A stretch of DNA of 64,000 nucleotides from contig JAAPAO010000109.1 of the NCBI GenBank assembly GCA_013115145.1, positions 1 through 64,000 on the forward strand. Direction: 5' to 3'. Positions 6,883 to 50,388 of this stretch are shown piece after piece. The position numbers were made by a program, and so were the translations under genes. Source of the DNA: Perkinsus chesapeaki (Eukaryota; Perkinsozoa; Perkinsida; Perkinsidae). The notes under the pieces are model-generated. The model was not told where the DNA came from. It did not search any database and saw nothing but the letters and a program-made list of their open reading frames with translations. Position 1 is the first letter of the stretch, and every line of letters begins with the position of its first letter.

Positions 6883-7428
6883 TCAGTGTTGTTGAACGGT
6901 CAAACCAGCAAGTTCTTCCAGCACTCTTATCCGCTCGTCGAGCTGAGTCCTCAAGTCTCGAACTTCATCCGTGAGGGCTGTAAGATTCACCGTGAGTGAC
7001 TGTATTGTGGCTTGCTGTTCTTGCAATGCCACAGTTAGAACTGCAATTAAGTCCTGGTAAAGGACCGACTTCAGCTGGCCAGCAGATTGATCATCATCTT
7101 CGCTGGACTCGGATTCCGAAGAATGTGTGTGGACAACCTCCGGTAAGATATGCTCCAAATCCTAAAACAACGTATGATGCTAAGTTTAGCGTTTAGGCAG
7201 GACAATTGTTTACCTGTGCGATGAACCCAAAACGAGTTCTATGATCTTTGTCGTCCTTGAGGTCGAAAGCAACTGGACGAAGCTCTCTGAGGAGCCATTC
7301 GCCAATTTTCTTGTCGTCCTCAGCTCGTTCTGCTGCAGTCGCTGAAGCCAGTGACCGCTTCAATGGAATGATGCGCTCCTTCAAACGACGGTCGGATGTT
7401 GTAAGGGCAACATCAACCTGCCAAGTAC
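6883..7428 (-). other. Peptidase_S74 intramolecular chaperone domain and C-terminal coiled coil
   Basis: The last two exons (7428-7214 and 7161-6883) encode TTSDRRLKERIIPL, LRELRPVAFDLKDD, then across the intron FGFIAQDLEHILPEVV, LKSVLYQDLIAVLTVALQEQ and a heptad-rich helix ending at VQQH. Order and spacing match the S74 domain of phage endosialidases and tail spikes and of the MYRF transcription factors. In that family a serine and the lysine five residues on (S-D-R-R-L-K here; Ser about residue 13,970, codon 7394-7396) catalyse release of the chaperone after trimer folding. Both residues are present. An acidic serine-rich insert (SSESESSEDDD) separates the two halves. Confidence 0.9.
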
Positions 7429-10400
7429 CTGAATAAAGTCTCGTAACTACAGAAACTAGACAACTCAGGAAACTTACCATGTAGGTGGCCTGTTTGATCT
7501 GACGTAGCTGATATGACACGAGCGCTGCCCGCATAGAGGTCAAAGCTACCCAGTCGTGCAAAGCTACGTAGTGATAATGAGCTGCCGCAGGTGATTGAGT
7601 CCATTACTGACAATGCCTTGCCAAGCCGGCAAGCATCCAGTAAAGACACCGAACTTCCAAGGCGAGCGAAGGAGCGTAGAGAGAGTGAACTTCCGAATCC
7701 GGAAGCACTCAAGACCGAGAGTGTATCCGATAAGCGCGCATAACCTATAGCTGATAATGTTGAACCCAGACCAGCTGCTCCAACGACAGATACGGAGCTA
7801 CCGACTCTAGAAAATGCTCGGAGGGACACGGAGCTTCCCAAGCATGCAGCATCAAGTGAAGAAAAAGTTGCACCAAGACGGGTCCAAGCAATAGCTGAGA
7901 TAGCTGAACCTGCTTGGGCTACGCCCGTCATAGACACCGCGCTACCGAGCCTAGCAAAGCTCCTCAGAGAAAGTGCACTGCCGAATGACGCCGAAGCGAG
8001 GACCGACATGTGGCTTCCAAGGCGGCCGACTTCAAGGGCAGAAAATGCCGATGAAAGCCTGGTAGCGGAGACGATAGAGAGTGACGAGCCAAACCTCGCG
8101 AACGACCTTAGGGAGATTGAGCTTGCAAGGATAGTAGAGTCGACTACCGAAAGCTTGTAGAGCGAGCCTAGACGTGCGAGGCCCATAACGGACACTCCAC
8201 TTCCAAATCGTGCCATCGAACGTAGCGACAAAGAACTACCTAAACTAGCTACTCCAACGGCCGACAGAGTCCCGCCAAGGCGAGTGAAACTGAGTGCCGA
8301 TAAAGACCCTTCCATTCTAGTGCTACCAGCCACTGAGACACCGCTGCCAAATCGGACGATTGCTCTCAATGAGAGGGAGCTACCGAGGCAAGTTGCGTCA
8401 AGAACGGAGAGCCAAGTACCAAACCTCACGTTAGATAATGCCGACAAAGTGGAGCCTACCCGAGTGACATCCTTGACCGAAATAGAGCTGCCGAGACGAG
8501 AGAATGACCTCAGAGACAAAGAACTGCCAAATTGGGCCCCGTCCGCAACCGATAGCTTATAAAGAGAACCCAGTCGGGTCAAGCCTGCAACACTGACTCC
8601 ACTGCCGAAGCGGGCAAATGCTCGTAAAGAGAGTGAACTGCCGAGCATACTGAAAGATAGAGCAGACATGTCAGCGCCGAGCCTCGTCGTTGAGAGAATT
8701 GAACATGTGCTTCCAATTCTAACCGGAGAGATGACCGAGACAGAGCTACCGACTCTAAGGAAGCTACGAAGGGACAATGAGCTACCTAATAGGGCGGCAT
8801 CCAATACCGAGAAGCTTCCACCGAGACGTCCGTACGAACAAACGGATGCGGCAGAACCAGCCAAGACAGTGCTGACCACAGATAGCGATGAGCCAAATCT
8901 CGCAAAGGAACGCATTGACATAGACGAGCCAAGATGAACTGCATCTAGGGCTGACACAGCGCTGCCAAAGCGGCTAACGGCCAGAACCGAAAGAGTAGAA
9001 GACAGGCTAGTGGCTGATGTGATGGACACGACGCTTCCCAAGCGAGCGAACGAGCGCAGCGACAGCGCACTGCCAAACGTGCTGCAGTCTAGGACAGACA
9101 TGGAGGCCGACAGTCTGGTAGTGGCCACAACAGAGAGTGTGCTGGAGATACGAGCAATACCAACAACAGATATGCCACTCCCAAGCCTGGCGAGAGCTCT
9201 TAACGAGCACGAGCTTCCAAGGTTACCCATAGACAGAAGTGTCAGAGTCCCCTGGAGTCTGCTCTGCCCAACAACAGATATGCCGCTACCAAATCTAGCG
9301 AATGCCCGCAGAGAAAGTGCAGAGCCGAGTGCTACAAAGTCCAAGGCTGAGCACGATGAACCAAAGCGCACAGCACTTAAGGATGAAAGGCTGCTTCCAA
9401 AGTAGCCGCTGCCGCTGACGGATGTTAAACCAAGTGAGCCGAATCTAGCCAATCCAGTAACGGAGATGCTGCTGCCGAATCTTGCGAAGCCCCGAAGGGA
9501 GAGTGAGCTACCAAGGAGCCCCATGTCCAACGTCGAGATAGATCCTCCAAACCTAGTCGAACTTGTGATGGAGCAAGTGCCGCCGAGGTGGATACCAGCA
9601 GTTAGAGAAAGAGAGCTACCGAGCCGAGCGATGCTCCTCAGAGACAATGAGCTTCCACATGCCATTCTGTCCAACACAGACAACTTGTCCCCGAATCGAG
9701 CATGGCCGAGCACGGACGCAGATGAGCCAATCATCGCTGTGCCAACCAAGGATGCACCACTACCAATTCTAGCGAAGCTGCGTAGTGACAGGGATGATCC
9801 AAAGGAGACGCAGCTTAGGGAACTTAGAGAAGCTCCAAGACGGGTACCTCCGAGGGCAGATAGTGTACTGCACATAGTTGCTGCTGATACTATAGATATG
9901 CAGCTTCCTGCCCGTATGAAGGATCTAATGGAGAGAGCGCTGCCGAAGTTGACACTGGCTAGCGCTGAGAGGGCACCTCCGACACGGGCGTAGCTCAGAG
10001 AGGAGAACGCGCTACCGCCCTGAACACGGCCAGAGATAGAAGCAGAGCTGCTCAAACGAGCGAAGTTTCGCAAGGAGAGCGAACTGCCGAGGCATACAGC
10101 GTCGACGGCTGAAAGCGTACTGCCTAGTCTGGTGAGATCAAGCGCGGATACCTGACCTCCAGATGTAATGGCGGTGAGGACAGACAAGACACTGCCTAGG
10201 CGAGCCGCAGAACGCAGGGATAGAGAGCTTCCGAAAGTTGTATAGTCCACAACCGACACTTTGAAGAGCGAGCCCATACGAACCAGGCCGGTAGCGGACA
10301 CCCCGCTGCCAAACCTGGCGAAGCTACGCAAAGAAAGAGAGCTACCCAGCGCAGTGAAGTCTACTGCTGAGAGAGAAAGCCCCAACCTAGCAGTGCTCAA

Positions 10401-13400
10401 GGCCGAAAGAGTGGAAGCAAGACTTGCTGTGGAGACAACTGAGAGAGCAGAACCAACTCTCAAGAAGTCTCTGAGAGATAAGCTGCTTCCGAACGCAGCT
10501 GAGTTCAGAACGGAGAGGCTGCTACCAACCCTAGCATAGGACAATGCAGAGAGGCTACTGCCAAGCTGGCCACTGGATACAACAGATATGTAGCTCCCAA
10601 TACGAGCAAAGGACCTCATCGAGATGGAACTTCCGAGAGAGACGCTGTCAAGGGTGCTCAAACTAGCTCCAACTCGGGCATAAGAGCAGGCGGAAAGAGA
10701 CGATCCAGCTTCCGCACGAGATCTCAAAGACAACGAACTACCCAACCTTGCGAAGCTTCGCAACGATAGAGTGCTTCCAAAGTTGCCCATGTCCAACAGG
10801 GAGACTCCACTGCTGAGGCGGGCCTTGCCAAGGACAGAAGCCGTACTGCCGAGAATCGCCCTGGATGCAATCGATGCCCCGCTACCAAGGCGAGCAAATG
10901 AACGAATAGACAGAGAGCTTCCGAAACCAGAGAAGTCAAGTATCGACAGGCTACTACCCAAGCGGACGGACGAGACTGCGGAAAGCTGCCCGGCCATCAC
11001 TGCGGCACCAGCAACCGAGAGAGAGCTACCCAAACGAGCGAAGCTTCTTAAGGACAACGTGCTTCCAAAGGCGGCGGCATCAACAGCAGAAAGGTAGGAA
11101 GTAGAGCCAATACGCGTGAGACCATCGACGGATATGCTGCTACCGATCCTGCAGAATCCTCTCAAGGAAAGCGAGCTGCCCAGGGTGCCCATACTTAAAA
11201 TAGATGTAGCCGAACCAAGGCGCGCAACGCCCAAAGCAGAAACAGATGAACCGGTGTTGACTACGCCGACAATCGAAAGGGCACTGCCAAACCTAGCAAA
11301 GCTCCGGAGAGACAATGAGCTTCCCAGCGCAATTGTGTCCAGGGCAGAGAGAGTTGAGCCAATGCGGCTGTAGCCTAGAGCTGAGACATCTGCGCCGATC
11401 ACTGCACCACTGGTTGCTGAGATTGAGCTACCTAGGCGAGCGAAAGACCGGAGAGAGAGCGTGCTGGCGAAGGACGTTCCGGCCAGTGTAGAAAGAACAC
11501 TGCCGAACCTAGCTACTTGTACAGCCGATATACTTCCTGCAATGCGAGCCCCAGACAGAAGAGACACAGAGCTGCCAATGCGAGCGAAAGACCTCAACGA
11601 TAGGGTACTTCCGAAGGTTGTGGCATCCACCGTTGATAGTGCACTGCCAACGCGCGCATGCGATAAGGACGAGACTTGGCTTCCCAGGCGCACCACTCCG
11701 GTAGTAGATACTGAGCTTCCGACTCTGGCGAACGATCGCAGCGATAGTGAGCTGCCAAGATAGATACCGTCCAATGCACTGAGTGACTGAGCAAATGAGG
11801 TTCCAGCAGTTATAGAAGCTGAGCTACCAAGGCGAGCGAAGCTCCTCAAGGAAAGTGCGCTTCCAAAAGTAACTTGATCCAGGGCACTAAGGCGACTGCC
11901 GAAGCGAACCGTGCTAACCGTGGAAAGGGCACTTCCGAAGCAGGCAGCGTTGAGAGCAGACAGAGTGGAACCAGCGTAGACCGCACCAAGAGACGAAGTC
12001 AAACCACACACACGCGCAATAGAGGTAATAGATATACCGCTGCCGAGACGAGCGAAAGATCTCATAGACAGCGAGCTACCATATACAGCAGAGTCTATCA
12101 CACTCATGCTGTACAGAGAGCCAATTCGTGTCAAGCCAACAACGGAAAGGCCACTCCCTAGTCGAGCCATACTTCTTAGTGAGAGGGAGCTACCAAGTTG
12201 ACCGAGACCCAAAGCTGAAAGCTTCGATCCGACCCTCAGTGTAGCGCGTAGGGACAGTGAACTACCAAAGTGAGCTGCCTGGATAATTGAAAGGCTACCG
12301 CCGAGTAGAAGGCTTGATTTTGCCGAGATACCACTGCCCATGCGTAGATAACTGCGTAAGCTCAAGGAGCTACCAAGTGTCACAAAATCAACTATCGATA
12401 TCTTGCTTCCTAACCGACCTTGTGACCGAATTGAGAGAGAGCTCCCGAAGGAAGAAGCACCCAGGGATGAGAGAGCATCACCGAAACTTGCCGAAGACAG
12501 AGCCGATAGTGCGCTCCCGACACGTACGCGCTCGGCTGCAGACAGCGAGGAACCAAGCCGCATACATGACCGGAGTGATAAAGAGCTGCCGAGGTTAGCA
12601 TAGTCTACAACGGTAAGTTTACTTCCAAGTCTGGCAAAGTTACGCAAAGACAAAGAACTACCATGGGATGCGCACCCAACAGTAGAAAGGGCGTTACCAA
12701 GCCTCGCTATACCAAGTACAGACATGGCTGAGCCAGTGCGAGTAACACCGGTCACTGATATCGAGCTGCCTAACCTAGCATAACCTCTTATTGAGAGGGA
12801 GCTGCCTAGGTTGACACAGTCCACAATACTAGCAACACTACCAAACCGAGCGAAGCTGCGCATAGAGATCGAAGACCCACAGTTGACGAATTCTGCTACA
12901 GACAAGCTGCCCCCAAATTCCAGTTGACCTTGGGCGAAGAGTCTGCTGTAGAGAGATAGGCTGCTACCGAGTCTCGCAAAGGACCTCAAGGATAGTGAGC
13001 TAGCTAGGTTGGCTGTCAGCATGACAGATAGCATACCCGCAACACGACTGCTACCAACAACGGAGACTGAGCTACCGGTCCTTACGAATGATCGCAGAGA
13101 AACGGAGCTCGCCAGAGTGATAGAGTCGCATACAGATACCCCACCGGTACCAAACCTAGACTGGCCATAGACAGAGATAGAACTACCCAGTCTGCCGATC
13201 GACCGTAAAGATAACGTGCTGGCGAAGGAAGCCGTGCTTATAGTAGATAATGCATAGATCGAACCAAGCCTTGCAAGACCAGTAAGCGACAATCCACTTC
13301 CTAGGCGAGCAAAGCTTCTCAAAGACAAGCTGCTGGCACAGTGGGCCATGTTGACGATGCTTGCACTGTATATCGAGGTAGTGCGGGTGACACCACAAAT

Positions 13401-16400
13401 CGAGACACTGCTGCCAAATCTAGCAAAGCCTCTCATAGATATGGAACTACCAATGGCGGCCATATCGATCAATGATAGTTTAAAGACGCTACCAATTCTA
13501 GCTAGGCCGAGCACCGATATTCCACTACCCAACCGAGCGGCGTGTCGGAGAGACAAGCAGCTGCTCATTGAACCAAAATCATATACTGATAGGGCGGAAC
13601 CGAGGTTTCCTAGAACCCTCACAGATAAAGAACTCCCTAGAGTAGTAGCACTCAAGACCGATAGGGCACTACCAAGTCGAGCCTTGCCCACGGTAGAGAC
13701 ACCACTGCCGAGGCGAGCGAACGCGCGCAGCGACAGGGAGCTGCCGAAGGAGGCCGCATCAAAGATAGAGAGCTTTCCACCAAGGCTGGCGAAAGAACGA
13801 AGGGACACGGAGCTTGATAATTGGACAGCGTTGGACGCCGATATGACTCCACCATGCCAAATCTTAGATGATACTGAGAGGGCACTACCAAGGCGAGCAG
13901 CTGCTCTGAGTGACATACAGCTGCCAATCATAACATGGTCTAAAATTGACAGGGACGCGCCGAAGCGAGTAGCTGACACAGCGGAAAGCCTCGAGCCAAC
14001 CCGACAGAAAGCCCTTACAGACAGGCTACTCGATAGATGAACAAAGTCAAATACCGATAACTTGGATCCACAACGTGAGAAGGCTCTCAGGGATAGGGAA
14101 CTGCCGAATTGAGCCTCATCAATAACAGACAACTTGCGTAACGAGCCTAGTCTGGCAAGGCCAAGTACTGATACACCGCTACCAAACCGGGCTACTCCTC
14201 TAAGTGAGAGAGTACTGCCTAGTGTGACGAAGTCTAGTACGGTTGCAGCAGAGCCTAGTCGAGCAAAGCTTCTTATTGACAGTGTACTACCAAAAGACAC
14301 CGAGTCCACCACTGACAGCTTAGATTGCATATAGGATTTACCATAGACCGATATCGATGATCCAGCAAGGGTACTGGATAATATCGACAGACCAGAGCCA
14401 AGCCTTGCAATAGCACGAATTGACATGCTACTTCCGAGACCGACCTGGTCGAGTACGGACAATTGGCTACCCAAAGAGCCCCTCGACAGAACAGATATCC
14501 TAGAGCCGATCTTGGAGCTGCAACGTAGTGAGAGACTACTGCCCAAGGTAACATAATCCAACACTGAGAGCTTGGAACCAAGTCGAGCAAAGCTTCTAAG
14601 AGATAGAGAACTACCAAGACCAGCCTCAGCTATAGTGGACACCGAGTAAATAGATCCGGTACGGAGTAACCCAAGCACCGAAACGCTGCTTCCCAACCGG
14701 CTGAATGCTCGCAGGGAGAGGCTACTGCCAAACTCGACCTCCTCGAGAACAGAGAGGCGGCCACCAACTCGCGAAAAGGAGCGAACCGATAACACGCTGC
14801 CGAAGTGTGCCTGGTCCAGCACTGACGTTTTGCTGCCCAACCTAGCAAAACTCCTCAGCGATAGAGAGCTACCGAAATGAGCTTGGCCTATCGTACTGAC
14901 ACGACTACCAAATTGGGCGGTGCTGAGCGCTGAAACGCTGCTGGCTAGTCGAGCGAAGCTACGCAGCGACAGTGAGCTTCCAAGATTGAGGGATTCAAGC
15001 ACACTAGCTCGTGAACCCAGTCGAGCGAACGACCTTAGAGAGAGTGAGCTACCCATACTGGCCTGAGCCAACACAGATATAGCCGATCCAAGTGCAGCTT
15101 TCTGCAGAACAGTAACAGCACTGCCCAGTCTGGTAAATGTGCGTAATGACAAACTACTGCCAATGCTCATATTCTCTATAACCGATAGCTTTGAGCCTAC
15201 TCTAGCAAAGCTTCTCAGAGAGATGGAGCTACCAAGGGTTGCGTAGCTCACTAGAGACATGTAGGAACCTAGACGTGCTCCATCGAACAGTGAGAGAGCA
15301 CTTCCCACCCTAAGGAAAGCTCGTAATGACATTGAGCTGCCTAGGATCGAGGTGTCCAGGACTGACAAACTGGAACCGGATCGGCTGAAAGACCGCAATG
15401 ATACCGAGCTTCCTAGAGTAATACGATCTAGGACAGAGAGCGAGGACCCAAGACGTAGCGTCGACAAGAGGGATACTGAGCTCCCCAGTCGGCACGCACT
15501 CCTCAACGACAGGCTACTTCCGAAAGCTACAAACTCGATGGCTGACAGTGATTTACCGATGCTGGCCTTCCCAAGAGCCGAGAAACCAGAGCCAATACGA
15601 GCTATAGATCTCAGGGATAGAGTGCTGCTGAAGGAAACCATGTCCATAACGCTTAGTCGACTGCTCAATCGCATCCACGAGCGGATAGAAAGCGAGCTGC
15701 CGAAGGAGGCGAATCCGAGAGATGATACAGTGCCACCACACCGACTTAGTGAAAGGGCTGACAAGGCATAGCCGAAGCATCCAGATGTAGAGACCGAAAG
15801 GCTGCTACCGAGACGAGCGAAGCTTCGCAAAGAGAACGAGCTTCCAAGAGTCACAGCACCGTAAGCAGACACCGTATATAGTGAGCCTACCCGAGTTAAT
15901 CCAGTGACAGAGACTGTGCTACCAAGCCTTGCAAAGCTTCTGAGCGACAAACTGCTCGAGAGAACACCGCTATCCAGCACAGTGAGGAGGCTTCCCAGGC
16001 GGGCGAAGCTCCTCAATGACATCGAGCTGCCAAATGAGACTGCAGCAATAGCAGATACGCCGGCGCCGAGCCTACAGGCGGATAGTACTGAGACAGTACT
16101 TCCGACTCTCACTAGTGACCGTACCGACAGTGAGCTGCTCAGAGTGGTAAAGTCGACAGTGCTGAGTGAACTGCCTAGCCTTGTGAAGCTGCGTAGCGAG
16201 AGTGAAGTGCCGAGGACAGTGGTATCCAACACAGAGAGCCGCTGAGAGAGCCTTGCAGCGCCCAGAACAGAGAATCCACTGCCAAGCCGGGCGAACTGTC
16301 TCAGAGATAACGAGCTTCCGAAGGATGTCGAAGCTATAACAGACAAGGTGTATACCGATCCACAGCGAAGAAGGGAGGCCACGGATAGGCTGCTGCCAAG

Positions 16401-28400: not shown

Positions 28401-31400
28401 TAAACTACCAGACAGCACCGAGCGACCAAGGACCGATGCTACGCTACCAAGCCGAGCAGCACTTCTCAAGGAGAGGGTACTTCCAAGTATCACTGTATCC
28501 AACACAGAGAGGCTTAGGCCCAATCTGGCAAGGTCGAAGACTGATAGTTGGCTTCCAACCCTAGCCAAAGAGCGTAGAGAAAGTGAACTACCAAGGCTGG
28601 TGGTGAGCATTATTGATAAAGTATCGCCCAAACGAGATTCGCCAAATATCGATACAACACTGCCAAAACGGACAAGTGATCGTACAGAGAGAGAGCTTCC
28701 AACTGTGGTGAAGTCTAGCGTACTGAGAGAGCTACCAAGCTTAGAGGCGCTATAGACGGAGAGGTCACTACCAAAACGGACAATAGCTCTAAGCGATAGA
28801 GAGCTCCCAAGGGTAGCCGAGTCGAGTGCCGATACTGCTTCACCGAGTCGGATAGCCGACATGATAGAGCAGCCACTACCAAGTCTGGCGAAGCTTCGAA
28901 GAGATAAGCCGCTGCCGAACATTACAGCATCGACAGTTGAGAGTACCGAACCAAAGCGTACGTGAGAGAGTGTTGATAAGGCAGAGCCATGGGAAACAGC
29001 CCCGGCAACGGATAAGCTACTGCCAAGGCGACCAACAGCTCTTAGTGATAGGCTGCTGCCCAAGGCCAGGAAGTCAAGCACTGATGCCTTGCTACCAAAC
29101 CTCGCGAAACTACGCAGTGAGAGGGAGCTACCGTAGTGAGCAGCTCCTAGTACCGATACGCTAGATCCGTGTTGCGCAATACCAGTTACGCTCATATACG
29201 ATCCAAATCTTGCTGTGCTCCTCAAAGAAAGCGAGCTACCTAATGCCACGAAGTCAAATGCCGAGAGATGGCCTCCAACCATGCCGCTCATTGTAAGCGA
29301 AAAGGTGCTGCCAAAGCGAGCAAATCCACGCAGTGATAGGGCGCTGCCAATCTCAGTGTGGGAGATAACAGACAGGGTGTTTGCAAGGTTGCACGCCTTA
29401 AGTACTGATAAAGCAGATCCAAACCGTGCGAAAGATCGCAGTGATAGTGAGCTGCCTAGGGACGCTTCGGCTAACGCAGATAGCGAACTGCCTAAGGTAG
29501 AGCCAGAGAAGGCTGATATCGAGGAACCGCACCGGAGTAGGGAACGGAGGGACAGTGAACTAGCTAGAGTAGAGTAATCAAGGACGCTAACAGAGCTACT
29601 GAGACGAGCTCTCTCGAGGAGTGATAGTTCACTACCCATACGAGCCATAGACCTCAATGACAGGGATGAACCGAGGCTCACACAGTCGAGGGCAGAAATG
29701 CCACTACCAAGACGAGCACTCATACCAACCGAAGCGACACTGCCAATTCGGACAAGGCCTCTGAGAGATAGGGAACTGCCCAGAGTGACCAGGTCTAGGA
29801 CAGTTAAGAAAGAGGCCAGACTTCCAGAAGCCTTCAAAGACAGCGTACTACCGAAGCGAGCCATGCTTCGCAAGGAGAGGGAGCTGCCCAACGCCGAGGC
29901 ATCGAAGGCAGACAAGGTAAGGCCGAGTCTGGCACAGCTCAGCGAACTGACAGCAGAACCTACCAGGCACGAACCTGCTACTGAACTAGCACTGCCGAAG
30001 CGAACAAAGGATCTCAGAGAAAGCGAGCTACCGAAGGTACCGTAGTCCAAAACGGAGAGCTTACTCCCTAGACGAGAGAAGCTTCTGAGAGAAAGGGAGC
30101 TTCCAAAGTTAGCATTGTCGTACACGGAGAGCACAGCACCGATATCAGTAGCCGCGTGAGCAGATACAGTGGAGCCCAGAGCTGTAGCTGAGGCCACTGA
30201 GATGGAACTACCCAGCCTAGCAAAACTGCGGACAGAGAGGCTACTGCCTAATGCCAAGGCATCCAAGATGCTCAACTTGCTACCGAATCTAGCAAAGCTT
30301 CGTAAAGATAGAGAGCTACCCAAATGACCCACGCCAACAGTGCTTAGTGATGCAGCATAAGCTCCTCCGACTGCCGATAGAGAGGAGCCAATCCTAGCAA
30401 CTGACCGAACTGATAAACTGCTACCCAGAAGGATATAGTCCAGCACCGAGGCACTGATGCCAATCCTGCTATGGGACGCTACCGACACAGATGAACCAAA
30501 GCGTGCAATGCTTCGGACTGATAGTGAGCTACCAAGCTGGACAAGATCGACAATAGAGAGAGTGCTGCCTAGTCTAGCGTTATCCAAAACCGAGAGAGAG
30601 CTACCAAATCTGGCGAGTTGCCTTACAGAAAGAGAGCTCCCTAAACAGGTGTAGTCTAGGACGGAGACTTTGCTACCAAGGCGGGCAAAGGATCTCAATG
30701 AAAGAGAGCTACCAAAGTTCGAAGTTCCGATAGCAGAGAGGCTTGCACTCAATAATGCATTGTTAGTCGCTGACAATGTAGATCCGAATCTAGCCATCGA
30801 GCGTAAGGATAGGCTGCTACCCAAGGTCATATAGTCAAGTGCTGAGACACTGCTGCCTAACCTAGAGAATGACCTCAATGATAGGGAGCTGCCAAAGGTA
30901 ACCTGTGAGAGGATCGTTAGCTGTGCACCAAGGAGCATGTCACTATACACCGACATAGAGCTGCCGCATCTCGCAACTGCCCGCAAAGACAGTGAGCTGC
31001 CGAGGGCAGTGGTGTCAAGAACGCTCAAGCCCCTGCCAAGACGAGTTTTCGAAAACACGGAGGCACTGCTGCCAAATCTAGCCACAGCCCGTAGAGACAA
31101 GGAACTGCCAAGAGCGGAGGCATCGAGAGCGGACAACTTGGAACCCAGCGACGCTTGGCCATAGACAGAAGCGGAGCTACCCACCCTAAACATAGCTCTC
31201 ACCGAGAGGGAGCTACCCAGAGTGACATAGTCTAATACTGAGATACTCGAGCCGAACCTGCCGTAGCCTCTGAGGGAGAGAGTGCTACCGAGGGCAGTTG
31301 TATCAAGTACAGATAAGGATCCAGACACGCGTGCCCAGGAGAGGATCGATGCAGCACTGCCGACTCTAAGGGAGTCGGTCACAGATATAGCGCTACCGAA

Positions 31401-37400: not shown

Positions 37401-40400
37401 CGATGAGCCAAACCTCATAAAGGAGCGTAACGATAGAGCACTGCTGAGAGTAGTACAGTCAAGGACAGTAAGAGAGGACCCCAAAATGGAACCAGCGAGT
37501 ATAGATATACCACTGCCGTACCGAGTAAAGCTGCGTAGTGATATTGTACTACCAAAGTTAAGTGCGTCAAGTACGGATAGGTCACGGCCAAAGCGAGCAC
37601 CCTCACGCGTCGAGAGACTACTACCAAGTCGAGCGAATGACCTCACCGACAGCGAGGAACCTATTCGGACGAAGTCTAGGATTGTTGCGTACTTGCCAAG
37701 TCTTGCAAAGTTCCTTAGGGATAAGGAGCTTCCCAGGTGTGCATAGCTAAGCACACTAATCGAGTCGCCAACCTTACACCAGTCAAGAACGCTTGCACAG
37801 CTGCCAATCCTAGCCAACCCCAGTATGCTGAGACCACTACCGATACGAGAGAAGCTTCTCAGTGACAAAGAGCTACCGATATTAGCTGCTTCGATAACCG
37901 ATAGCGCTGCACCACAACTAGCTGAGCTAAGTGTGGATACCGTACTGCCAAGCCTTGCAAAGCTACGCAGGGATAGAGAGCTACCAAGGATACTCTGGTC
38001 TAAAAGTGATGCCGAGGAACCATAGCGTATGATGGATTGAAGGGAAAGTGATGAACCAAGACGACAAGCTGCCCGTAAAGAGAGGGAACTTGCAAGGCTG
38101 GTCCACGATAGTGCTGTAAGTGATGCTCCCAATCTTGTAGCACACAAGGCCGAGACCGTGCTCCCTAGGCGTACGACCGATCTGACAGACAGCGACGTAG
38201 CGCAGACTGCAAAGTCCATAACGGACAAGGAGGAGGATAGTCGCGTCTGTGACAGCACGCTGATAGAGCTACCAAACCGCGTGAACCCTCTCAGAGATAG
38301 AGAACTGCCTAGAAGGGTGCAGTCAAGTGCTGTTAGGTCCTTGCCGAGCCTGGTACCCAACACAGTAGAGATGGATGATCCAAATCGTATAAACTCTCTC
38401 AGTGATACCGCACTTCCAAAGGATACGAAATCGAGGACTGATGCACTACTGCCAAGCCTAGATACAGCATAGAGCGATAGAGAACTTCCAAGCCTTATGG
38501 TAGAACGAAGGCTCAGAGAGCTAGCAAGCCCTGTGAAGTCTAATACGGATAGAGTGTCAGATATTCTCATACTGGAAAGGATCGATGCAACACTACCTAG
38601 CCTCACAGTCGCACGAATAGAAACAGAGCTACCCAAGTGAGTGTAATCCAAGACCGACAAGCTGCTGCCCATCCTTGTCTTAGAGAGCATTGAGATACCT
38701 GAGCCGAAGCGGCAGAAAGACCTCAGTGATAGGGAGCTCCCGAGGGAGGTAGAGTCGAGTACTGAAGCAACACTTCCCATTGTCATTGAAGCTATAACCG
38801 ATACCGTACTGCCTGCTCTAGCCACTGCCCTTATTGACAAAGTACTTCCAAGGGTCACTGCATCCAGGACTGATAATACTGAGCCAAACCTGGATGTACT
38901 ATACACTGAGAGACCACTGCCGAAGCGCATCATACCACGCAGAGATAGGCTGCTACCAAGAGTGCTCCATCCGAGGACTGAAAGGCTACTACCTAGCCTA
39001 GACACGCTGTAGACTGACAGTGTGCTGCCAAGTCGAGCACTAGATCGAATACTTATTAGGCTACCCAAGTTAACATGGTCAAGCGTACTTAGAGTGCTGC
39101 CTAAACGAGTTGTCCCATAGCAGCTCATAGTGCTGCCCTGCCTCACAAAGGACCTCAAGGATAGTGAGCTACCAAAGTCTACACTATCCAGGACAGATAG
39201 GGTTAAACCCATCCTGGCCTGTGCGAACATACTCACTGAGGACCCTTGACGAATGAACGACCTTAAAGAGAGGCTACTGCCGAACTTGACTGCATCCAGT
39301 ATTGAGAGCTCTCCATGTAACCTCTGATATCCATAAGCAGAGATGTTACTTCCAAGCCTAGCAAATGAGCGCAGGGACAACGAGCTACCAAGCCCAATAG
39401 CATCCAAAACAGAGAGGGTAGACCCTAGCCGTGACATTGACAGAGTTGACAGAGAGCTCCCGAGCCTTGTAGCTGCCCGGACGGACAACGATGACCCGAC
39501 TCCGATGAAATCAAGTACTGACATGCTACCACCATAGCGAGCGATACCATAGGCGGATATTCGACTGCCTAGACGAGTCAGTGACCTTACGGACAACGAG
39601 CTTGAGAAGGTACCAAAGTCGAGCAATGATAGTGAGCTACCAAACCTTAAAGATGAAAAGACAGATATACCACTGCCACATCTAGAGAAACCTCGAAGGG
39701 ATAGAGAGCTACCTACAGTTGTATAAGCTAGAGTGGATAGGGATTTACCAAGTCTGCTCCAAGACGCCACTGACAGATTGCTACCAAACCTAATGTAGCT
39801 CCTTAGGGACAATGCACTTCCCATGGTGACATAATCAATAATAGAGCCAGAAGACCCTAACCGAGCCAGGCCCAACAGTGAGCAAGCACTACCAAGACGG
39901 GCAAAGGTACGGAGAGATAGGGAACTACCCAATTGAAGGAAGTCGAGGGCAGTTACGTGTGAGGCAAAGCGAGCTAGACCCATAACGGATACACTACTGC
40001 CTGCTCTAGCGTATGATCGTAGGGAGATAGAGCTACCCAAAGTACTCCATTTCATGACAGATACACCACTAGAGAACCGAGCAAGAGCGAAGGCCGATAA
40101 GGTAGAGCCTAGTCTGGCAAATGATCTCAGGGAAACAGCGCTAGCTAAGCTGGTATAGTCTAATATGGAAGTAGCACTACCAAAGCGGGCAAGACCATAT
40201 AAGGATAGGCTGCTGCCTGCCCTCATCATACATCTTAGGGACATAGCTGATCCCATATTGGCAAAGGAAAGGGTTGAGATAGAACCACTTATCCTTACCC
40301 CAGATAAGGTTGATAGTGTACTCCCTAATCTAACCAGGTTACGGACTGATAGGGCACTACCACAATGACCAAAATCAAGCAAAGAGAGGGAGTCACCAAA

Positions 40401-43400
40401 TCTAACAGTGCTTAGAGAAGACAGTGTACTGCCAAGGCGGGCAAAAGATCGCAATGACATTGTGCTACCGAGATGGCACTCGCAAAGAGCAGTGAGGGCA
40501 TGCCCTACTGCGGTCTTAGAGAAAGCTGATAAGGTGCTGCCAACCCTTGTGAAGGCTCTCAATGATAGGCTGCTACCTAGAGTAACAAAATCCAACACTG
40601 AGAGAGTACTGCCAACCTTTGCAAGAGAGAGCATAGATAGACTGCTGCCCAGCCGGGAGCTGCCACGGATAGACAGGCTACTAGCTAGCGTCGAATAATC
40701 TACCAAGGACATGGAAGAACCAAAACGAAGAGCGCTGTAGACTGACATTTTACTACCAAACCGAGCAAAGCCTCGGAGAGATAGAGAACTCCCTAAAGCC
40801 ATCGAATCCAGAACCGATACGGTGGACCCGAGCCGAGTTACGGAGAATAGACTAGTCGATGAACCAAATCGAGCTGCAGCTCTGAGGGAGAGAGCAGACC
40901 CCATAGTGACGCTATCCAACGATGACATAGTGCTGCCGAATCTAGCCATACCAAGTAATGATAATTCACTTCCTAACCTTATCATAGACCTTAATGACAT
41001 AGTGCTGGCTAAAGATACATGATCAAGTGTAGATATCGTAAGCCCTAGCCTAGTCCAGCCTTGCACTGAGAGTGTTGATCCAAGCCTCATTATGGACCTC
41101 AATGAGGCAGAACTGCCGAGGTTGAGGAAATCAAGCACTGAGAGTGTAGACCCTAGACGAGACATTGAGAATACCGACAAGTCACTGCCGAGTCTGCAGC
41201 TGTTGCGCACCGATAAAGTGCTTCCTAACATAAGGAAGTCCAGTATAGATGCTGCACTGCCGAGGGAGGAGAAGGAGCGAATTGATAGTGAACTTCCCAT
41301 ACTCGCATAATCAAGAACGGACATGCCACTTCCCAATCTAGTAGTCGAAAGTACAGAGAAGTAGTCGCCTAGATGGACTCTGTTAAAAACTGACGTGGTG
41401 CTGCCAAGACGAGCGAAGGCTCGGAGGGATAATGAGCTGCCAAAGTTGCTCAAACCGAGGACGGTTACTGAATCACCAAATCTAGCCCATCCCAGAGCAG
41501 AGAGGTTACTGCCTAGTCTAGACATGGCTCGAATAGATAGACTGCTGCCTAACTTAACCAGGTCTAACACTGACAGACTGCTGCTTAAACGCTGGCGTGC
41601 TACTATAGATAGATCACTGCCAAGCCGTACTAGGTTCCTAACAGATAGGGAACTGCCAAGTGTTAGCCAGTCCAGCACTGATAAGGAGCATCCAGCTCTA
41701 GATATACTGAAGATGGAGCATGTACTCCCCAGCCTAGTATATGAACGTACACTCATACAGGAGCCGAACTCCAATACACCAGCACATGATACCTTAACAC
41801 CAAAGTTAGCTTGACCATAGCAGGATAAAGAGCTACCGAATCTCATAAACGTTTGAAGAGAAAGAGAGCTACCCAATGTAAGGCTATCAAGTACCGATAA
41901 TGAGCTACCTAGTCTTGCAATACTGAACAATGATATTGAACTACCAAGGCGAGCAGCACCACGCAGAGACAGTGAACTGCCAAGGTTAAGATAGTCGAGT
42001 ACTGACGCTTTGCTTCCTAGGCGAGCTAGACTACGAAGTGATAGTGAACTTGATAGAGCAACTTGGTCTATAACTGATGCAGTACTGCCCATTCTAAGCC
42101 ATCCTAACACTGAAAGATTATCACCAACATGTACAGTAGAGAAGGTGGACAATGTACTGCCTAGCCTACTGAAACCACGCAGTGATAAAGTCGATGATAC
42201 TGTCATATGACCAAGGACAGATACTTGAGCTGAGAGCCTACTGCTGCCAAACACAGAGAGGCGGCTACCAAGCCTGAAGACAGATCTAACAGATAGACTA
42301 CTGCCGAGTTGAAGGCAATCTAGTATCGACATTTGCTCTTGGAATTTAGTCCTTCCATACACTGATATTTCAGAGCCTATTCTACCAACAGCTCGTAATG
42401 ATAGACCACTACCAAGCGTGACAGCATCGAACATGCTTAGAGTGCTCCCTAGTCTAGCTAAGCCATGTAAAGACACAGCACTGCCTTGACGATAGAAGCT
42501 CCTTAGAGATAAGGAGCTGCCAAGGGTAGAATGATCTAAGATAGATACAGTGCTACCCACTGCTATATTAGCAAAGGCAGATAGAGTACTACCCAACCTA
42601 ACATATGATCGAACACTCACTGCTGAACCAAGGCCTGTAAAGTCCAGCACAGATACAAGAGAACCCATACGAGCATAGCTATAGACAGAGAAGATACTGC
42701 CAAGTCTCATCATACTACGTAATGATAGGGTACTGCCAAATTGGGCATAATCTAATAGTGATGTACTAGACCCTAGCCTACTGCAGCTGTATAGTGACAT
42801 AGTACTACCAATACGACCGTAGGACCGAAGAGAGAATGAACTACCCAGACCAACATAGTCTAATACAGAGAGAGAACTGCCAAGCCTTGCAAGGCTGAAT
42901 ACAGATATCTTGCTCCCTAACTTGATGAAGCTACCGATAGAGCAAGAGCTACCAAATGTTGCGTAGTCAAGCACAGAAAGGCTACTTCCAAAGCGAACAA
43001 GGCCAAAGACGGACGCAGTACTGCCAAGTCTGGCGAACGATCGGATACTCAACGAGGAGCCCATTGCCATAAAATCAAGGACCGATGCAGCAGCACCCAT
43101 TCTGCAGCCGGTATAGAGAGAACAGGCGCTTCCCATACGGGTGATGGACCGTAGGGAGATAGCAGATGATATCTCTACTGCTCCGATAACACTCAAAGAT
43201 TCTCCTAGCTTAGCCCAGCCATACACTGATATGGTACTGCCGAGCCTTGAGAAGGAATTTACTGAGATAGAGCTACCCAGTCTAAGCCTATCAAGTACAG
43301 ATAGAGTCGCTGCGAATCTGGCAGTACTGAATACCGATATACCGCTACCAGCCCTAATGGCACCACGAAGGCTTAAACTACTGCCATAATTAGCAAAGTC

Positions 43401-46400
43401 AAGTACTGTTAGTTTGCTACCCATCCTAGCAAAGCTTCTTAAGGACAAGCTGCTTGCTAGGGTGCTGGCATCTAAGACACTTAGGGCCTCACCTAGGCGA
43501 GCAACGCTTAGAGCTGACACAGAGCTACCCAGCCGAGTGACTCCACGGAGTGATAGAGTGCTACCAAGGTGAAGGTAATCCAGTACCGACGCTGACATAC
43601 CCAAGCGGCTGAGCCCAAACAGAGACATAGCAGAGCCTAAACGAGCAGTCTTTCGGACAGATAACGAGCTGCCTAGTTGCAGGTAGTCCAATACAGATAG
43701 AGACAAGCCAAGCCTTGCTTCTGACAAAATTGATAGCGAGCTGCCTAGTCTACCAAACTGCCTCAAGGATAAGGAGCTACCACAGAGGGAACACTCCATA
43801 GCCGAGATCGCTGCACCCAACCTAGTGGTGGAGAAGATAGATGTTCCACTGCCAACACGAAGGTAGGACCGTAACGATATACTACTGCCTAGATTAGCAA
43901 AGGCCAGCACTGAAACAGTACTGCCCATACGAGCTAAGCTGAAGAGGGATAGTGTACTCCCAAGACGGCAGAAACCTCTTAGAGATAGAGTGCTACCTAC
44001 TCCAGTGTAGTCAAGGATAGATGTACTGCTAGCAAGGCGTGATAAACCAAAGACAGATAAGGCACTACCCAGCCTAACAGCAGCACGAAGAGACAGCGCC
44101 GAACCGACATTGATATATCCCAATGTGGATAGGCTACTCCCCAATCTAGCTACCGCTAATGCTGTAATAGTGCTACCCAGTCTAACAAAGCTTTTAGTAG
44201 AGAACGTACTACCCATATTAATAAAGTCTAGTGTTGATACAGTACTGCCTAATCTTTGCATAGAATAAACCGACATGGTTGATCCTAGCCTTATGTAAGA
44301 TCGTATGGAATAGGCACTTCCCATATTAACAAAGTCCAGGATTGACAGCGAGCTGCCTAACCTAGCAATGCTATACAGTGAAGCAGTCGAGCCTAGGCGG
44401 ATGAAAGACCTTATTGATAGGGAGCTACCAACTGACTCATAATCAAATATTGATATACTGCTACCAAGCCGACTCAAGCCATAGATAGATATAGCACTAC
44501 CAAAACGAGAGAAGGAGCGAAGAGACATCGCGCTCCCTAGCTCAGTCATATCCAATATGCTTAGATTACTGCCTAGTCTACTCATGGAGAATACACTGCA
44601 TTGGCTACCCATACGGAAATACGATCTTAGAGAGCAGGCACTGCCAAGATTGGCAAAGTCGGCTATCGATGCGGTGCTACCATATCTAGCCAAACCAAAC
44701 ACTGATAGATAGCTACCCATTCTTGCAGTAGATCGAATAGACATTGAACTACCCAGTGTGGCCACATCAATAGCAGACATTGCTGAACCGAATCTAGAGA
44801 TACTAAATATCGATACAGCACTACCCATACGGAATAAGGCACGTAAGGATAGACTACTGCCAAGGGCTACAGCATTCAATACCGACATCTCATGGCCTAA
44901 ACGAGCAACACCGTAAAGGCTACAGGTGCTACCCATTCTATTAAAGCTTCTCAAAGAGCATGCGCTACCAAGTGTAGTGGCATCTAGTATACTCAAAGTG
45001 TTACCATACCGGCTAGAGCCGAATATAGAAAGGCCACTTCCCATACGAAGTAGGGCTCTTATTGATGTAGAGCTTCCGAGGTGAAGGAAGTCCAATACAG
45101 ATAGGCCTTTGCCAAGCCTTGACGTATCATAAACTGATAAGTAGCTGCCCAGCCTCACTAGACCACGTAGAGAGAGACTACTGCCAAGATGAGCGTTATC
45201 AAGTACAGATAACTCATGGCCTAGACGTGCTTGACATAGTACAGATACCGAGCTACCTAGCCTACTAAACCCTCTTAAGGATGTAGAGCTTCCTAAGAGG
45301 ACATAGTTTAGAACCGATACGGAGCTACCGATTCGTGCACATCCAAGGACAGATAGAGCACTTCCCAATCTCTGGAACTTAGCGAGTGATACAGCAGAGC
45401 CTATATTAACGTAATCCAGCACGGACACCGTAGAAGCTATCCGTGTTAAACCAAAGATAGACATTGCCGATCCTATCCTTCCAAAGCAACGGGTTGATAT
45501 TGAACTACCTAAAGAGGTATAGTCAAGTATGGTAACACCAGCAGTGGCAGCACGTAGAGAGCTAAGACCAAATATCGATACACTACTGCCCATTCTGGTG
45601 AAGCTACGAAGGGATAGAGCACTGCCTAGATGTATTCTAGATAGGATAGACACAGAGTTGCCAAAGCGTGCAATACCATGGATAGAGGCTGCACTACCTA
45701 GTCTAGAAAGGGAACGTAACGAACATGAACTAGCCATACCAGTAAAGCCTAATACTGATAGACTACTACCGCCTCTAGCAATACCCCAAATAGATAAGGC
45801 TGATGATAGACGGGCAAAGCTACGCAGTGATACCGAGCTACCAAGGTCTGCCCAGTCTAAGATTGATAGCGAGCTTCCAAAACGGGAAGCAGCAAAGATA
45901 GACACTTGGCTGCCAAACCGGCTGAATGCTCTGACTGATAGTGAACTGCCTAGTTTAGCATATCCCAAGGCTGACAGGCTAGTACCAGCTCTCATAGAGC
46001 CGTACACAGATGCAGTACTCCCCAAACGGAAGCTCGACCTTAGAGATAGAGAGCTCCCTAAAGTAACATAGTCAAGCACTGATATAGCACTGCCAAATCT
46101 GGTCATACTAAACAATGATGCACCACTACCAAGTCGAGCAAGTCCTCTCATAGAGCAGCTGCTACCCATTGTAAGGAAGTCTAATACAGTAAGTGATCCA
46201 CCAAGTCTTTGGATAGTATAGGTAGACAATGAGCTGCCTAGTCTAACATGCTGCCTGACTGATAGGCTACTACCAAGGGCTAGGTAGTCTAATAGTGAGA
46301 AGCTACTAGAGAATCTAGCACCTCCAAGCACTGATAGACCACTCCCTAAACGCTGCATAGATCTTACTGATAGGGAGCTACCGAGATGGACAAAACCCAC

Positions 46401-49400
46401 ACTTGATAGAGAACTACCAAGCCGTGCTAAGCCAAGGATGGAAGTGGAGCTACCAACACGTGAAAAACAACGCATTGAGAGAGCACTTCCTAAGTGAGAG
46501 AAATCTAATATTGACATCGAACTACCAAAACGGGCACAATCAAAGATAGATAGAGTACTGCCTATCCTCAATAAGTTCCTTAGTGATAGTGAGCTCCCCA
46601 GAGTACACCAGTCGAGGGCAGATAGAGAACTACCAAAGCGACCAAGACCATATGCAGACATCGCACTACCAAGTCGACCAAATGTACGTAACGATAAGGA
46701 GCTACCAAGAGCTATGCATCCCAATGCTGATAGGGAACTACCCATCCTTTGGGTGCCAAATACAGATAATGCCGATCCAAGACGAGAGAAGGCGTACAGT
46801 GATAGTGAGCTACCCAAGTTAACAAAGTCTAGGACACTGAGTGCACTACCAACTCTAGTTATACCAAGAGCAGATAGTGCACTACCTAAACGAGAGAAGC
46901 TTCTTAAGGATAACGATGATGCTAGATCACCAGCGTCAAGTACTGACATACTACCCCCTATACGAGCCTTAAAGTAAGCACTTATACCACTACCAAGTCG
47001 TTGAATACTACGTAGTGACATAGAGCTACCAAGTTGAAGGAAATCAAGTAATGACATACTACTGCCTAATCTTGCACCACCAACTGCAGATAGAGTGCTA
47101 CCCATTCGATAACTGCTACGAAGAGATAGTGAACTACCAATCATAGCAAAGTCCATAACACTCATAGCAAGTCCCATACGAGCACTACCAAAGAGGCTCA
47201 AACCAGATCCTAATCTAATGTAGTTCCTTAGGGAGAGACTGCTACCAATAGTTAAATGATCCATCATAGATATAGTTCTACCAAACCTTGCCGAACCAAA
47301 GATACTACATGAGCTACCAAGACGAGCAAAGGTACGTAAAGTAAGGGAGCTGGCTAGCTGTACATAGTCAAGTACCGATAAGGCACTACCAAATCTAGAT
47401 AAACCAAAGACAGATAGAGATGAACCACAACGAGTAAAGGAGTTAACCGATACACTACTTCCTAAACGTGTTTTATCTAGAATGGTTAAAGAGCTACCAA
47501 GCCTTACTATACCATATACTGACATGGTACTACCGAGTCTAGCAAATGATCTAATAGATAGACCACTACCATGATTAGTACAGTCTAATATACTCAATGA
47601 TGAACCTAAACGTGCCCCACTATATACAGATAGCATACTCCCTAAACGACATTGAGATCTTAAGGATAGACCACTACCTAGTATACCCATATCAAGTAGG
47701 GACATAGTACTACCAAATCTAGCTTGGCTAATGACTGATAGACTACTCCCTAATCTTGATGTACTCCTTACAGACAATACACTACCCATTAGTACAAAGT
47801 CCATAACAGATAGAGAACTGCCTAGACGAGTAGCTGAGTAAAGTGATAGAGTACTACCCATACGGCAGGTAGACCTAAGTGATAAGGCTGAACCAAGGCT
47901 ACAATGGTCAAGTGTAGAGGTAGAACTACCAAATAATACCTTAGAGAATACTGATAGAGAACTACCCAAACGTGAATATGAGCGTATTGATAATGAGCTA
48001 CCAAATGCAATATAGTTTAGTAATGATAGACTACTGCCTAATCTCACTATACCATACACTGATAGACCTGATCCTAACCTTACAAAGTTCCTTATACTAG
48101 CAGCTGATCCTATATGTGTATAATCTAATGCAGATATACAACTAGCCATTCTAGTCATACCATATATTGATACAGCACTACCTAATCTACTATAGGATCT
48201 CATACTCATACTACTACCCATATTAACAAAGTCTAGTATAGTTAATGAACTGCCTAATCTAGCCACACCATAGATACTAGCAGATGAACCGAATCTAGTA
48301 AAACTCCTTACAGACATAGCACTGCCCATGTTAACAAAGTCTAGCACTGAACCAGTGCTACCACATCGTATAAGCCCAAATGTGGACACAGTGCTTCCCA
48401 CACGAAGATATGCCCTTAAAGATATTGAACTAGCCATTTGAGCAAAATCAAACACAGACAATGAGCTGCCAAATCGAGCTGCTCCGTATCTAAAATAACG
48501 TCTTAAGATGCCTAATATTATTAGTAAACTTACACTGAGATTGATGATCCCATACGTGCATAGGATCGTAGAGATACTGTTGATCCTAAACCCATCATAT
48601 CAAATATTGATAAAGTTGATCCAACTTCAACCTTATTAAACACAGATACCGTGCCTACGAGTACAGTTCAATACAAGGTATATGGCAAGCCTTACCCATG
48701 ATAGTAACAGGAAATGATGCCACACTAAGTGGTCCACCAAGTCTAGTTACATCATTAACTGATACACCACCGTTTCTATTAGGTTCACTAGGATATCCAA
48801 ACACCTATAAGTAAACACTATTGAAAAGATGCTGCTGCTGGTGGTGAGTAGCTATTATATACTTACATTCAACCTATTGGCTATACCAACCAGACTGCCA
48901 AAATTGGCAAAGGAGCGTACACTTAATGATGAGGCTGCCACAATCTAAGTTAACTTTGTATGGTATTTGCATTCATATAATGTTACATAATCCTCCACTG
49001 ACATCCTCTTCTTTATATCAACAGTCTTCTCAAAGGTAGCCTTCCCTAATAACTGTGTTGCACCATTAACCGAAAGTGATGGTCCAACTTCCTCAGGGGG
49101 TACCTATATTAATATTATTAACCTAATATTATATCCACTTACATAGTCCCCATGTATATAGACAAACCTTCCTATAGATAATGTTGATAAATACACCTAT
49201 TAAAGAGGAGTATTATTTATGAAATTATATAATACTTTACTTCAGCTGATTTAATCTCCATAAAAGTAGTAGTGGTATCCAATCCACTATCTGGTCTTTT
49301 AATATGTAAGGCATCCTTAATCTCAAACTCTCCAGCCATTATATCAAGACCTTGGTATGCTGTAGCCTTCTCATCAAAATGTCTATCAAAAGTATGATCA

Positions 49401-49708
49401 CCACTGTATATTATATCACTTACGATTGTCCTCTAACTGATAGACTTCCAGCCAATACCATACCTCTTGTTGTCCTTAATAAAGACATTACCGGTGTTGG
49501 ATTGTTAGTAGCGGTAAATCCTAGCTCTCCTTGTTCGTATCTTATAATAGTTATATCTTATAATAATGTTAATAACTACTTACTCAAAGGATGTGGTATC
49601 ATCAGCTACAATATTCCATAAACCCACTCCTTTATGACGGAATGTTATACCAGACCCAGATACCGAAGCATCTAGTAGTAATAATATACCCAACAGTTTA
49701 ATAATCAT
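6883..49708 (-). CDS. Giant secreted repeat protein with C-terminal S74 chaperone (14,122 aa predicted)
   Basis: Eleven exons on the minus strand join in frame: 49708-49584, 49540-49424, 49382-49241, 49196-49143, 49103-48987, 48944-48867, 48804-48696, 48654-48534, 48489-7478, 7428-7214 and 7161-6883. The coding sum is 42,369 bases (14,122 residues plus stop). Introns are 39-62 bases, all GT-AG. The start is the ATG at 49708, giving the signal peptide MIIKLLGILLLLDASVS. A leader of about 280 residues follows, with tail-fibre-like phrases (SLSVNGATQLLGKATFEK, SVNDVTRLGGPLSV). Then come about 1,140 twelve-residue repeats in one uninterrupted 41,012-base exon, and finally a Peptidase_S74 domain with coiled coil. 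S74 proteins are trimeric beta-structured fibres whose C-terminal chaperone cleaves itself off after folding; an extracellular fibre is inferred. I know of no named homologue. Main doubts are the intron 2 acceptor and whether the long exon is fully retained. Confidence 0.85.
8100..23500 (-). repeat. Zone of the variant repeat GS(V/L)YxLSVI
   Basis: Within this part of the array a variant unit with two extra residues recurs, usually after GLxR: GSVYKLSAIA, GSLYKLSVIA, GSVYALSVIA, GSMYQLSVIS, GSLFKVSVVD and others, more than twenty by eye. The first in protein order is at about 23,490 and the last at about 8,160. I saw none in the N-terminal 25 kb, so this zone has its own duplication history. 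Confidence 0.8.
25671..25760 (-). other. Non-repeat, tail-fibre-like segment inside the array
   Basis: The 12-residue pattern is interrupted once by GTDLKVAGSATIGGVLEME, a phrase like the adhesin and tail-fibre segments that normally precede S74 domains and like the leader of this same protein. The repeats resume immediately on both sides. It may be a remnant of the ancestral shaft. Confidence 0.6.
49383..49423 (-). other. Intron 2 of giant gene, with two in-frame acceptors
   Basis: The donor GTAAGT at 49423 can pair with the acceptor TTTTGATAG (intron 49383-49423, 41 bases) or with ATACAG (intron 49404-49423, 20 bases). The acceptors are 21 bases apart, so both keep the frame and differ by seven codons (G-D-H-T-F-D-R). 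The 41-base form matches the other introns and is preferred. Confidence 0.6.
49584..49708 (-). other. First exon of giant gene: signal peptide
   Basis: The exon encodes Met-Ile-Ile-Lys, then a leucine/isoleucine core and a small-residue cleavage region (DASVSGSG). This is the layout of a secretory signal peptide and implies export of the whole chain. The exon ends in phase 2 at the donor GTAAGT (49583). It was found only by splicing; no long open frame marks it. Confidence 0.75.
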
Positions 49709-50388
49709 TATTTACCTATCTCTATGCGACCTAGGAACGTTATGGTTCCATCACGTCCGACCAGAACCCATGCGTTAGTAGATGGTAGTAGTTGCAGCAG
49801 CAATATTATATAGTACATTATATGTACTAACATGCATTTACTTGATTGCCGCAGCTCCGTTATCATAGGTCATTCATGAATTAAGTATAACTATAATCAG
49901 ACATCCATCAGTAACAACCAAGTCAACTACTAATAAGGATCGCATAACAGTGATCCATTACCATACAGTACAAATTACTACTCATCCCAATACTCTCATA
50001 AACGGCATACACAATGTTGATTGACAAACACAACCGTAATTACAGCCAACAAACCTTCTATCATTCGGAAATTTCCATGGACTCGATCTCTGCGGATCTT
50101 GCCATTGTTCGTGCAACCCTTGCAGTTAGGTAAAAAGCGCACGCCATTCTGATCGATAATCTTGCGCGGTTCCCGCAATCAGCGCGGGATAGGTGGTCTG
50201 GGAGCAAATCGTTGATAATGGCATCTGATTGGGTTATAACATCCGAGTTACGTACTACACTTCATTCAAGGGGGAAAACTAAACCAACACCAAGAATACT
50301 TAATAATAATGTAATGCATATGTAGCTGTAATGAGTAGTTATATGTTGTTGTTAGACCTTAAGGAGATGCTATAATATAACACATGAT
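49709..50388. promoter_or_regulatory. Divergent promoter region between giant gene and an unrecognised gene
   Basis: About 680 bases separate the start of the giant gene (-) from the start of the next gene (+), so both promoters should lie here. The sequence is AT-rich except for a more GC-rich patch at about 50,060-50,250. An AG lies just upstream of each start (minus strand before 49708; plus strand before 50389), as needed if 5' leaders are trans-spliced. No promoter motif was recognised. Confidence 0.4.

Follow-up and report, generated by a model that had tools for sequence, protein, structure and literature searches.

In proteins with a Peptidase_S74 domain, a serine is the cut site and a lysine its partner, and the phage members carry a coiled coil behind the domain. 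The S74 domain also trimerises and self-cleaves in the eukaryotic membrane-tethered transcription factors MYRF and MrfA. LpxA and LpxD, in turn, are enzymes with a left-handed beta-helix; each coil of this fold takes 18 residues and adds 0.48 nm, and S, T, A, or V at the fifth place of the hexapeptide is a known rule of hexapeptide repeats. Here, we describe a gene on the minus strand of a 64,000-nucleotide (nt) stretch of Perkinsus chesapeaki DNA (contig JAAPAO010000109.1, hereafter the window), which is referred to as gene A (49818-6883) and is predicted to join a secretory signal, a very long array of 12-residue repeats, and a C-terminal S74 domain. On balance, we lean towards reading its product as a giant fibrous protein that a Perkinsus-type protist secretes and in which a left-handed beta-helix rod is trimerised by S74 and forms a self-trimming extracellular filament.

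The gene A model comprises 12 exons and 11 GT-AG introns of 39-62 nt and encodes 14,144 residues up to one terminal stop, whereby the intron and exon boundaries were picked by eye from the sequence. Its parts are the following:

49716-49818, minus strand: exon 1, with the start codon, a hydrophobic signal peptide (MYYIILLLQLLPSTNA) and the beginning of the conserved head WVLVGRDGTITFLG (gene model; same first methionine in a Perkinsus olseni fragment; head common to the paralogous gene B and the relatives P0135, P0140, P0145, and P0149).
48534-49671, minus strand: exons 2-9, the head region and the first irregular repeats, with introns of 39-62 nt (gene model; alignment to P. olseni P0121).
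7478-48489, minus strand: exon 10, 41,012 nt, stop-free, about 1,139 unit-equivalents of a 12-residue repeat with the consensus GSSLSLRSFARL (frame, repeat and stop counts).
7214-7428, minus strand: exon 11, from GTWQVDVALTTSDRRLK to RFGFIAQ, the beginning of Peptidase_S74, including the Ser-Lys motif SDRRLK (Pfam, S74 genome searches, motifs of the relatives).
6883-7161, minus strand: exon 12, the end of Peptidase_S74 and a predicted C-terminal coiled coil, with the stop codon TGA (Pfam, gene model; coiled coil from heptad-like sequence).

The long exon of the original prediction has exactly the proposed size of 41,012 nt and is stop-free (48489-7478), and in the sequence model GT-AG joins connect it to a signal peptide on one side and to S74 on the other. 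The first exon, however, had been misplaced: the earlier start at 49708 falls inside intron 1, and with ATG 49818 the model gives 14,144 residues instead of 14,122. A signal peptide is still predicted, though it is encoded by another first exon (49818-49716). ATG 49818 (MYYIILLLQLLPSTNA-WVLVGR) is the preferred start because P0121, annotated as “hypothetical protein FOZ60_008328, partial” from P. olseni and the best database match to the gene A head, aligns from its first methionine, and because the WVLVGR-type head is common to gene B and other relatives. In this alignment, 338 of 409 positions are identical (83%), with the first methionine on residue 1, and 8 of the 9 introns before exon 10 sit in gapless stretches. 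The join at intron 2 is less sure since the P. olseni model contains five additional residues there.

Without interruption, the gene A frame extends on the minus strand from 48599 to its stop codon at 7413 (13,728 codons), whereas the two other same-strand frames of exon 10 contain 711 and 846 stops; at that stop density, the chance of 13,670 open codons is about log10 P = -348. Tandem Repeats Finder reported no array at its threshold, and the longest exact direct DNA repeat measures 26 nt in the long exon of gene A and 27 nt in that of gene B, so that ordinary-length reads can cross the long exon. An assembly or tandem-repeat artefact was therefore rejected, and the assembly error that had been named as a possible refutation is unlikely. 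Across the long frames of genes A and B, the peptide GSSLSLRSFARL occurs in 88 copies, each of them encoded by a different DNA word (88/88), and the core SLRSFAR occurs in 222 copies with 220 DNA words. The mean nucleotide difference among the GSSLSLRSFARL copies is 0.361, compared to 0.391 for codons drawn randomly from the two genes. Synonymous sites are thus nearly saturated while the peptide is unchanged, which indicates that the units are old rather than recent copies and are under selection at the protein level. Judged from these codons, the 12-residue array is old and maintained by selection on the protein.

For the C-terminus, the proposed S74 chaperone was confirmed with the Pfam hidden Markov model: the spliced gene A tail matches Peptidase_S74 (PF13884) with 46.7 bits (gathering score 22; E 3.9e-12), and exon 11 alone reaches 28.6 bits. 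A Pfam scan of the head (325 amino acids, aa), a 400-aa piece of the array and the tail (236 aa) yielded only S74 and a sub-threshold coiled-coil domain of unknown function. In a PHROGs search, the tail matched phage tail fibre families (best E 1e-16). The protein search returned 360 relatives at E <= 1e-3 among 7,999 scored candidates. Among the 120 listed of these, 116 have SDxRxK and 118 have HGxW; 114 carry both motifs, which lie at a distance of 12 residues in 106 of them. The repeat profile matches all 120 at E < 1e-5. A profile built from the relatives finds phage fibre chains in solved structures (6f45, E 5.6e-10; 8jov, E 6.1e-5), aligned over the SDRRxK and GxIAQ regions. The SDRRLK Ser-Lys motif is present in the tails of both gene A and gene B. 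On our reading, the gene A protein would trimerise and cleave itself.

The genome searched comprises 35.4 Mb in 884 contigs. S74 searches found only two places in it, gene A and gene B, and the repeat matches, among those listed, all lie on the two contigs of these genes. Gene B (contig C664, 33478-102198, loci L018-L026) has an open frame of 22,003 codons; its model consists of 18 exons, one of them 65,938 nt long, and about 22,594 residues, including one later-recognised 51-nt intron. Its introns, which were placed with a simple score, carry more uncertainty than those of gene A. It shares the head (WVLVGRRGDITLLG) and both S74 introns (after HG and after FIAQ) with gene A and has one extra. 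Hence, the 41-kilobase (kb) exon that had been called exceptional has the size claimed but is surpassed by that of gene B within the same genome. Collinearity between the two genes is weak, with a Spearman coefficient of 0.55 over half-overlapping windows and 0.33 in the best fifth. Third-position GC (guanine plus cytosine) content within exon 10 (7478-48489) increases from 0.30 to 0.51 in the 5' to 3' direction, but goes from 0.62 to 0.51-0.56 in gene B.

Eukaryote transcript or UniRef sources account for 12 of the 120 listed relatives; the names that can be read among them are Alexandrium monilatum, A. catenella, and “Kry”, which is truncated. As relatives with the same tail occur in transcript sources, such homologues are evidently transcribed in dinoflagellates. 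Whole giant relatives of 5.5-17.5 kilo-amino acids (kaa) were not found at E <= 1e-3 among 455 scored candidates, whereby the database may lack such models. No relatives of the repeat were found by sequence in the viral, phage, and prokaryote collections, nor was the repeat present, among the matches listed, in any of the 80 viral S74 loci retained from 244 that encode a relative; at least some of the 80 have collagen-like repeats. The predicted proteins P0146 and P0156 keep the same 12-residue frame, with many Ser/Arg places now Leu, Phe, Pro, Cys, or His; from their sequences they look like decayed arrays whose frames are still long and open. The assignment of the host to the protists is supported. 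In the genome, the 21-nt core CCGTAGCCATCTTGGCTCAAG occurs eight times and its reversed control not at all. Among three contexts, two have an A in front of it, which matches the P. marinus form of 22 nt, and one has a T; GT follows directly in the T context only. CCGTAGCCATCTTGGCTCAAG is the core of a spliced leader of Perkinsus marinus, and at this position dinoflagellates carry ATTTTGG (PMC3101222, PMC9399869); P. marinus introns range from 39 bp upward (PMC3101222). Together with the 83% identical P. olseni orthologue, this makes a Perkinsus species different from P. olseni the most likely host.

With respect to the array, exon 10 corresponds to 13,670/12 = 1,139 unit-equivalents, which agrees with the predicted “over a thousand” 12-residue beta-type repeats; 809 units stand in strict 12-residue register, and 672 satisfy a stricter motif. 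The self-identity of gene A peaks at lags of 12 (0.341), 24 (0.363), and 36 (0.408) residues, and in both genes a super-period of 36 or a multiple thereof leads in blocks over approximately the first 8,000 residues, followed mostly by 24. At 18 residues per coil, a 12-residue unit would be back on the same face after 36 residues, i.e., two coils, which would explain the super-period of 36. Read as two hexapeptides (LGSSLS-LRSFAR), the unit has S, T, A, or V at position 11, the fifth place of the second hexapeptide, in 614 of the 809 units. Since the motif used to select these units prescribes places 2, 3, 5, and 6, only the remaining places are informative. The first hexapeptide, unlike the second, has a large hydrophobic residue at its fifth place. 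NCBIfam profiles of LpxA/LpxD match all of the seven forward array segments (324-400 aa in length), the best with E 3.2e-12, and none of three reversed control segments; with no net gap, the similarity extends over stretches of at most about 170 residues. When one array segment was compared with the PDB by phmmer, the eight best matches were all LpxA or LpxD, although not significant (best E 0.11). Several relatives bear the source label of an LpxA/LpxD-type enzyme. A shaft in the form of a left-handed beta-helix is thus supported but not proved by these sequence patterns. Such a rod would measure 364 nm for gene A and 586 nm for gene B, with chain masses of about 1.45 and 2.3 megadaltons (MDa), respectively.

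In the proposed mechanism, the signal peptide would take the chain into the endoplasmic reticulum, the N-terminal head (WVLVGRxGxITxLG) may anchor or cap the fibre, and approximately 13,670 residues, each 12-residue unit forming two hexapeptides, would wind into a left-handed beta-helix to give a rod of about 0.36 µm. The C-terminal S74 domain and coiled coil would gather three chains, folding being nucleated from the C-terminus. S74 would then cut itself off before the serine of SDRRLK and leave a stable fibre ending near HGTW...TT, that is, with ...HGTWQVDVALTT. The finished fibre would be an extracellular filament.

Several results speak against this proposal. The NCBIfam matches amount to 17-46 bits, far under the curated enzyme cut-offs of 160-242, and with a maximum of 46.3 bits at a curated cut-off of 231 the array does not qualify as an LpxA/LpxD acyltransferase. 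Pfam gives no hexapeptide match for a 400-aa array segment, and the short arrays of P. olseni P0121 and P0140 have no NCBIfam match. The two single-chain AlphaFold2 (AF2) models are too poor to rely on: that of the zone of the 36-residue period has a predicted local distance difference test (pLDDT) score of only 53, even if its four-residue strands, mostly every six residues, are on the side of the beta-helix, and that near the C-terminus has a score of 60; Foldseek searches with these low-confidence models retrieved nothing from the PDB at E <= 1e-3. The gene A protein is very basic, with an isoelectric point of 11.5 and 1,232 R+K versus 471 D+E, and the long exon encodes just six NxS/T sites, which is unusual for an extracellular protein. 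In addition, known phage S74 fibres usually have an interwoven trimeric shaft.

The latter point leads to the alternative which survives best, namely that product and S74 maturation are the same but each chain contributes 12 residues per step to an interwoven triple beta-helix of phage type, which makes up the shaft. The low single-chain AF2 confidence would be expected if the fold requires three chains, and by profile an array piece (window 30000-31199, minus strand) matches the function-unknown phage families phrog_5353 (E 2.3e-12) and phrog_36281 (E 2.6e-11), although tblastn of the repeat against phage records gave no match. As the hexad pattern and the forward-only LpxA/LpxD match in seven of seven segments argue against it, we regard an interwoven shaft as unlikely, if worth serious attention.

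Concerning the place of the fibre, an extracellular filament is what we infer from the predicted architecture, and the simple hairs of the flagellum are the most attractive candidate. Simple hairs on the anterior cilium are described as a myzozoan trait, the proteins of which were reported as unknown in 2017 (PMC5756292). None of the present results ties the fibre protein to flagella, and the flagellar location is a guess, with extrusome content and surface coat as alternatives. The most far-reaching version, which we put forward as a rather unlikely one, would be that genes A and B form myzozoan flagellar-hair filaments and, with about 760 and 1,220 coils, no left-handed beta-helix known would be longer. 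Each protein would come mostly from one exon of 41 or 66 kb, and a phage-type, self-cutting S74 would fold it as a trimer, starting at the C-terminus, with the repeat number setting two hair lengths. It is still less probable that the protein, instead of being a flagellar or coat fibre, is stored in an extrusive organelle of the trichocyst or mucocyst type. Such content would fit a secreted, fibrous protein common to dinoflagellates, many of which have trichocysts; on the other hand, we know of no trichocysts in Perkinsus, and the relative P0010 bears the number MMETSP0469, which we take to be Oxyrrhis. Oxyrrhis is reported to lack typical trichocysts (PMC5029502).

It might also be that the locus is not expressed as a single mRNA, whereby cryptic introns, premature polyadenylation, or decay would lead to shorter products or none. 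Gene A was read from DNA, and gene finders fragment such genes, as in the partial P. olseni model that skips the repeats. However, 13,670 stop-free codons, next to hundreds of stops in the other frames, and nearly saturated synonymous sites with unchanged peptides, which mean selection on the whole array, make broken expression improbable. The least probable explanation is a captured fibre gene of an endogenous polinton-like or giant virus that is still essentially viral: polinton-like viruses commonly have S74 fibres, with lengths of up to 3.9 kaa (PMC12220804), and Foldseek found two matches at E <= 1e-3 among viral models (Pyramimonas orientalis virus, template modelling score (TM) 0.15; F2Y0P8, TM 0.52), but the 11 introns, the signal peptide, a paralogue with the same introns, a P. 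olseni orthologue, the lack of repeat relatives in the viral loci and other collections scanned, and a neighbourhood whose Pfam matches are a subtilase and a methyltransferase rather than viral genes all contradict it. The S74 domain itself may go back to an ancient viral source. The two neighbouring frames lie at 58020-58934 (subtilase, Peptidase_S8) and 4916-6460 (methyltransferase), both on the plus strand, and have no evident tie to the fibre gene; neither tRNA genes nor Rfam families were found in the window.

If the filament reading is true, a eukaryote lineage builds extracellular filaments of megadalton chains by phage-style self-trimming fibre assembly. Exons of 41 to 66 kb raise concrete questions on transcription, splicing, and secretion, and the arrays keep their 12-residue register after near-randomisation of synonymous sites. 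Since short-read gene prediction fragments such genes, the family may be larger than the databases show.

None of the three elements is new when taken singly: S74 fibres, left-handed beta-helices, and giant proteins have all been described before. Searches of the open-licence literature turned up no description of their combination in a secreted eukaryotic family whose exons reach 41 and 66 kb, subscription papers and preprints being outside this scope. The original statement that no such eukaryotic protein had been described holds insofar as no paper turned up there, but not for databases, which contain the partial P. olseni entry and dinoflagellate transcripts annotated as “Peptidase S74 domain-containing protein”. 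These transcripts (Alexandrium and others) and P. olseni FOZ60_008328 have the same repeat and tail, or the same head, and thus form one family with gene A, represented in the database by short pieces only. Gene A resembles LpxA/LpxD in the hexapeptide pattern and profile similarity of its array; it differs in its predicted coil number, which exceeds 700 where those enzymes have about ten, in scores far below the cut-offs, and in showing nothing that points to an enzyme. MYRF and MrfA are likewise eukaryotic S74 proteins; unlike in MYRF, Pfam finds no DNA-binding family in the head, array piece, and tail that were scanned. Polinton-like virus fibres are also protist-associated with a terminal S74, whereas their repeats are of the laminin G or collagen type (PMC12220804), and genes A and B constitute a host family with another repeat. 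Compared to phage S74 fibres, gene A differs in being eukaryotic, with introns, a signal peptide, a shaft of about 13,700 residues, and a repeat not found in the retained viral S74 loci, while it shares with phage tail fibres and spikes (Peptidase_S74, chaperone of endosialidase) the C-terminal S74 with SDxRxK and GFIAQ, the following coiled coil, and the repetitive shaft in front.

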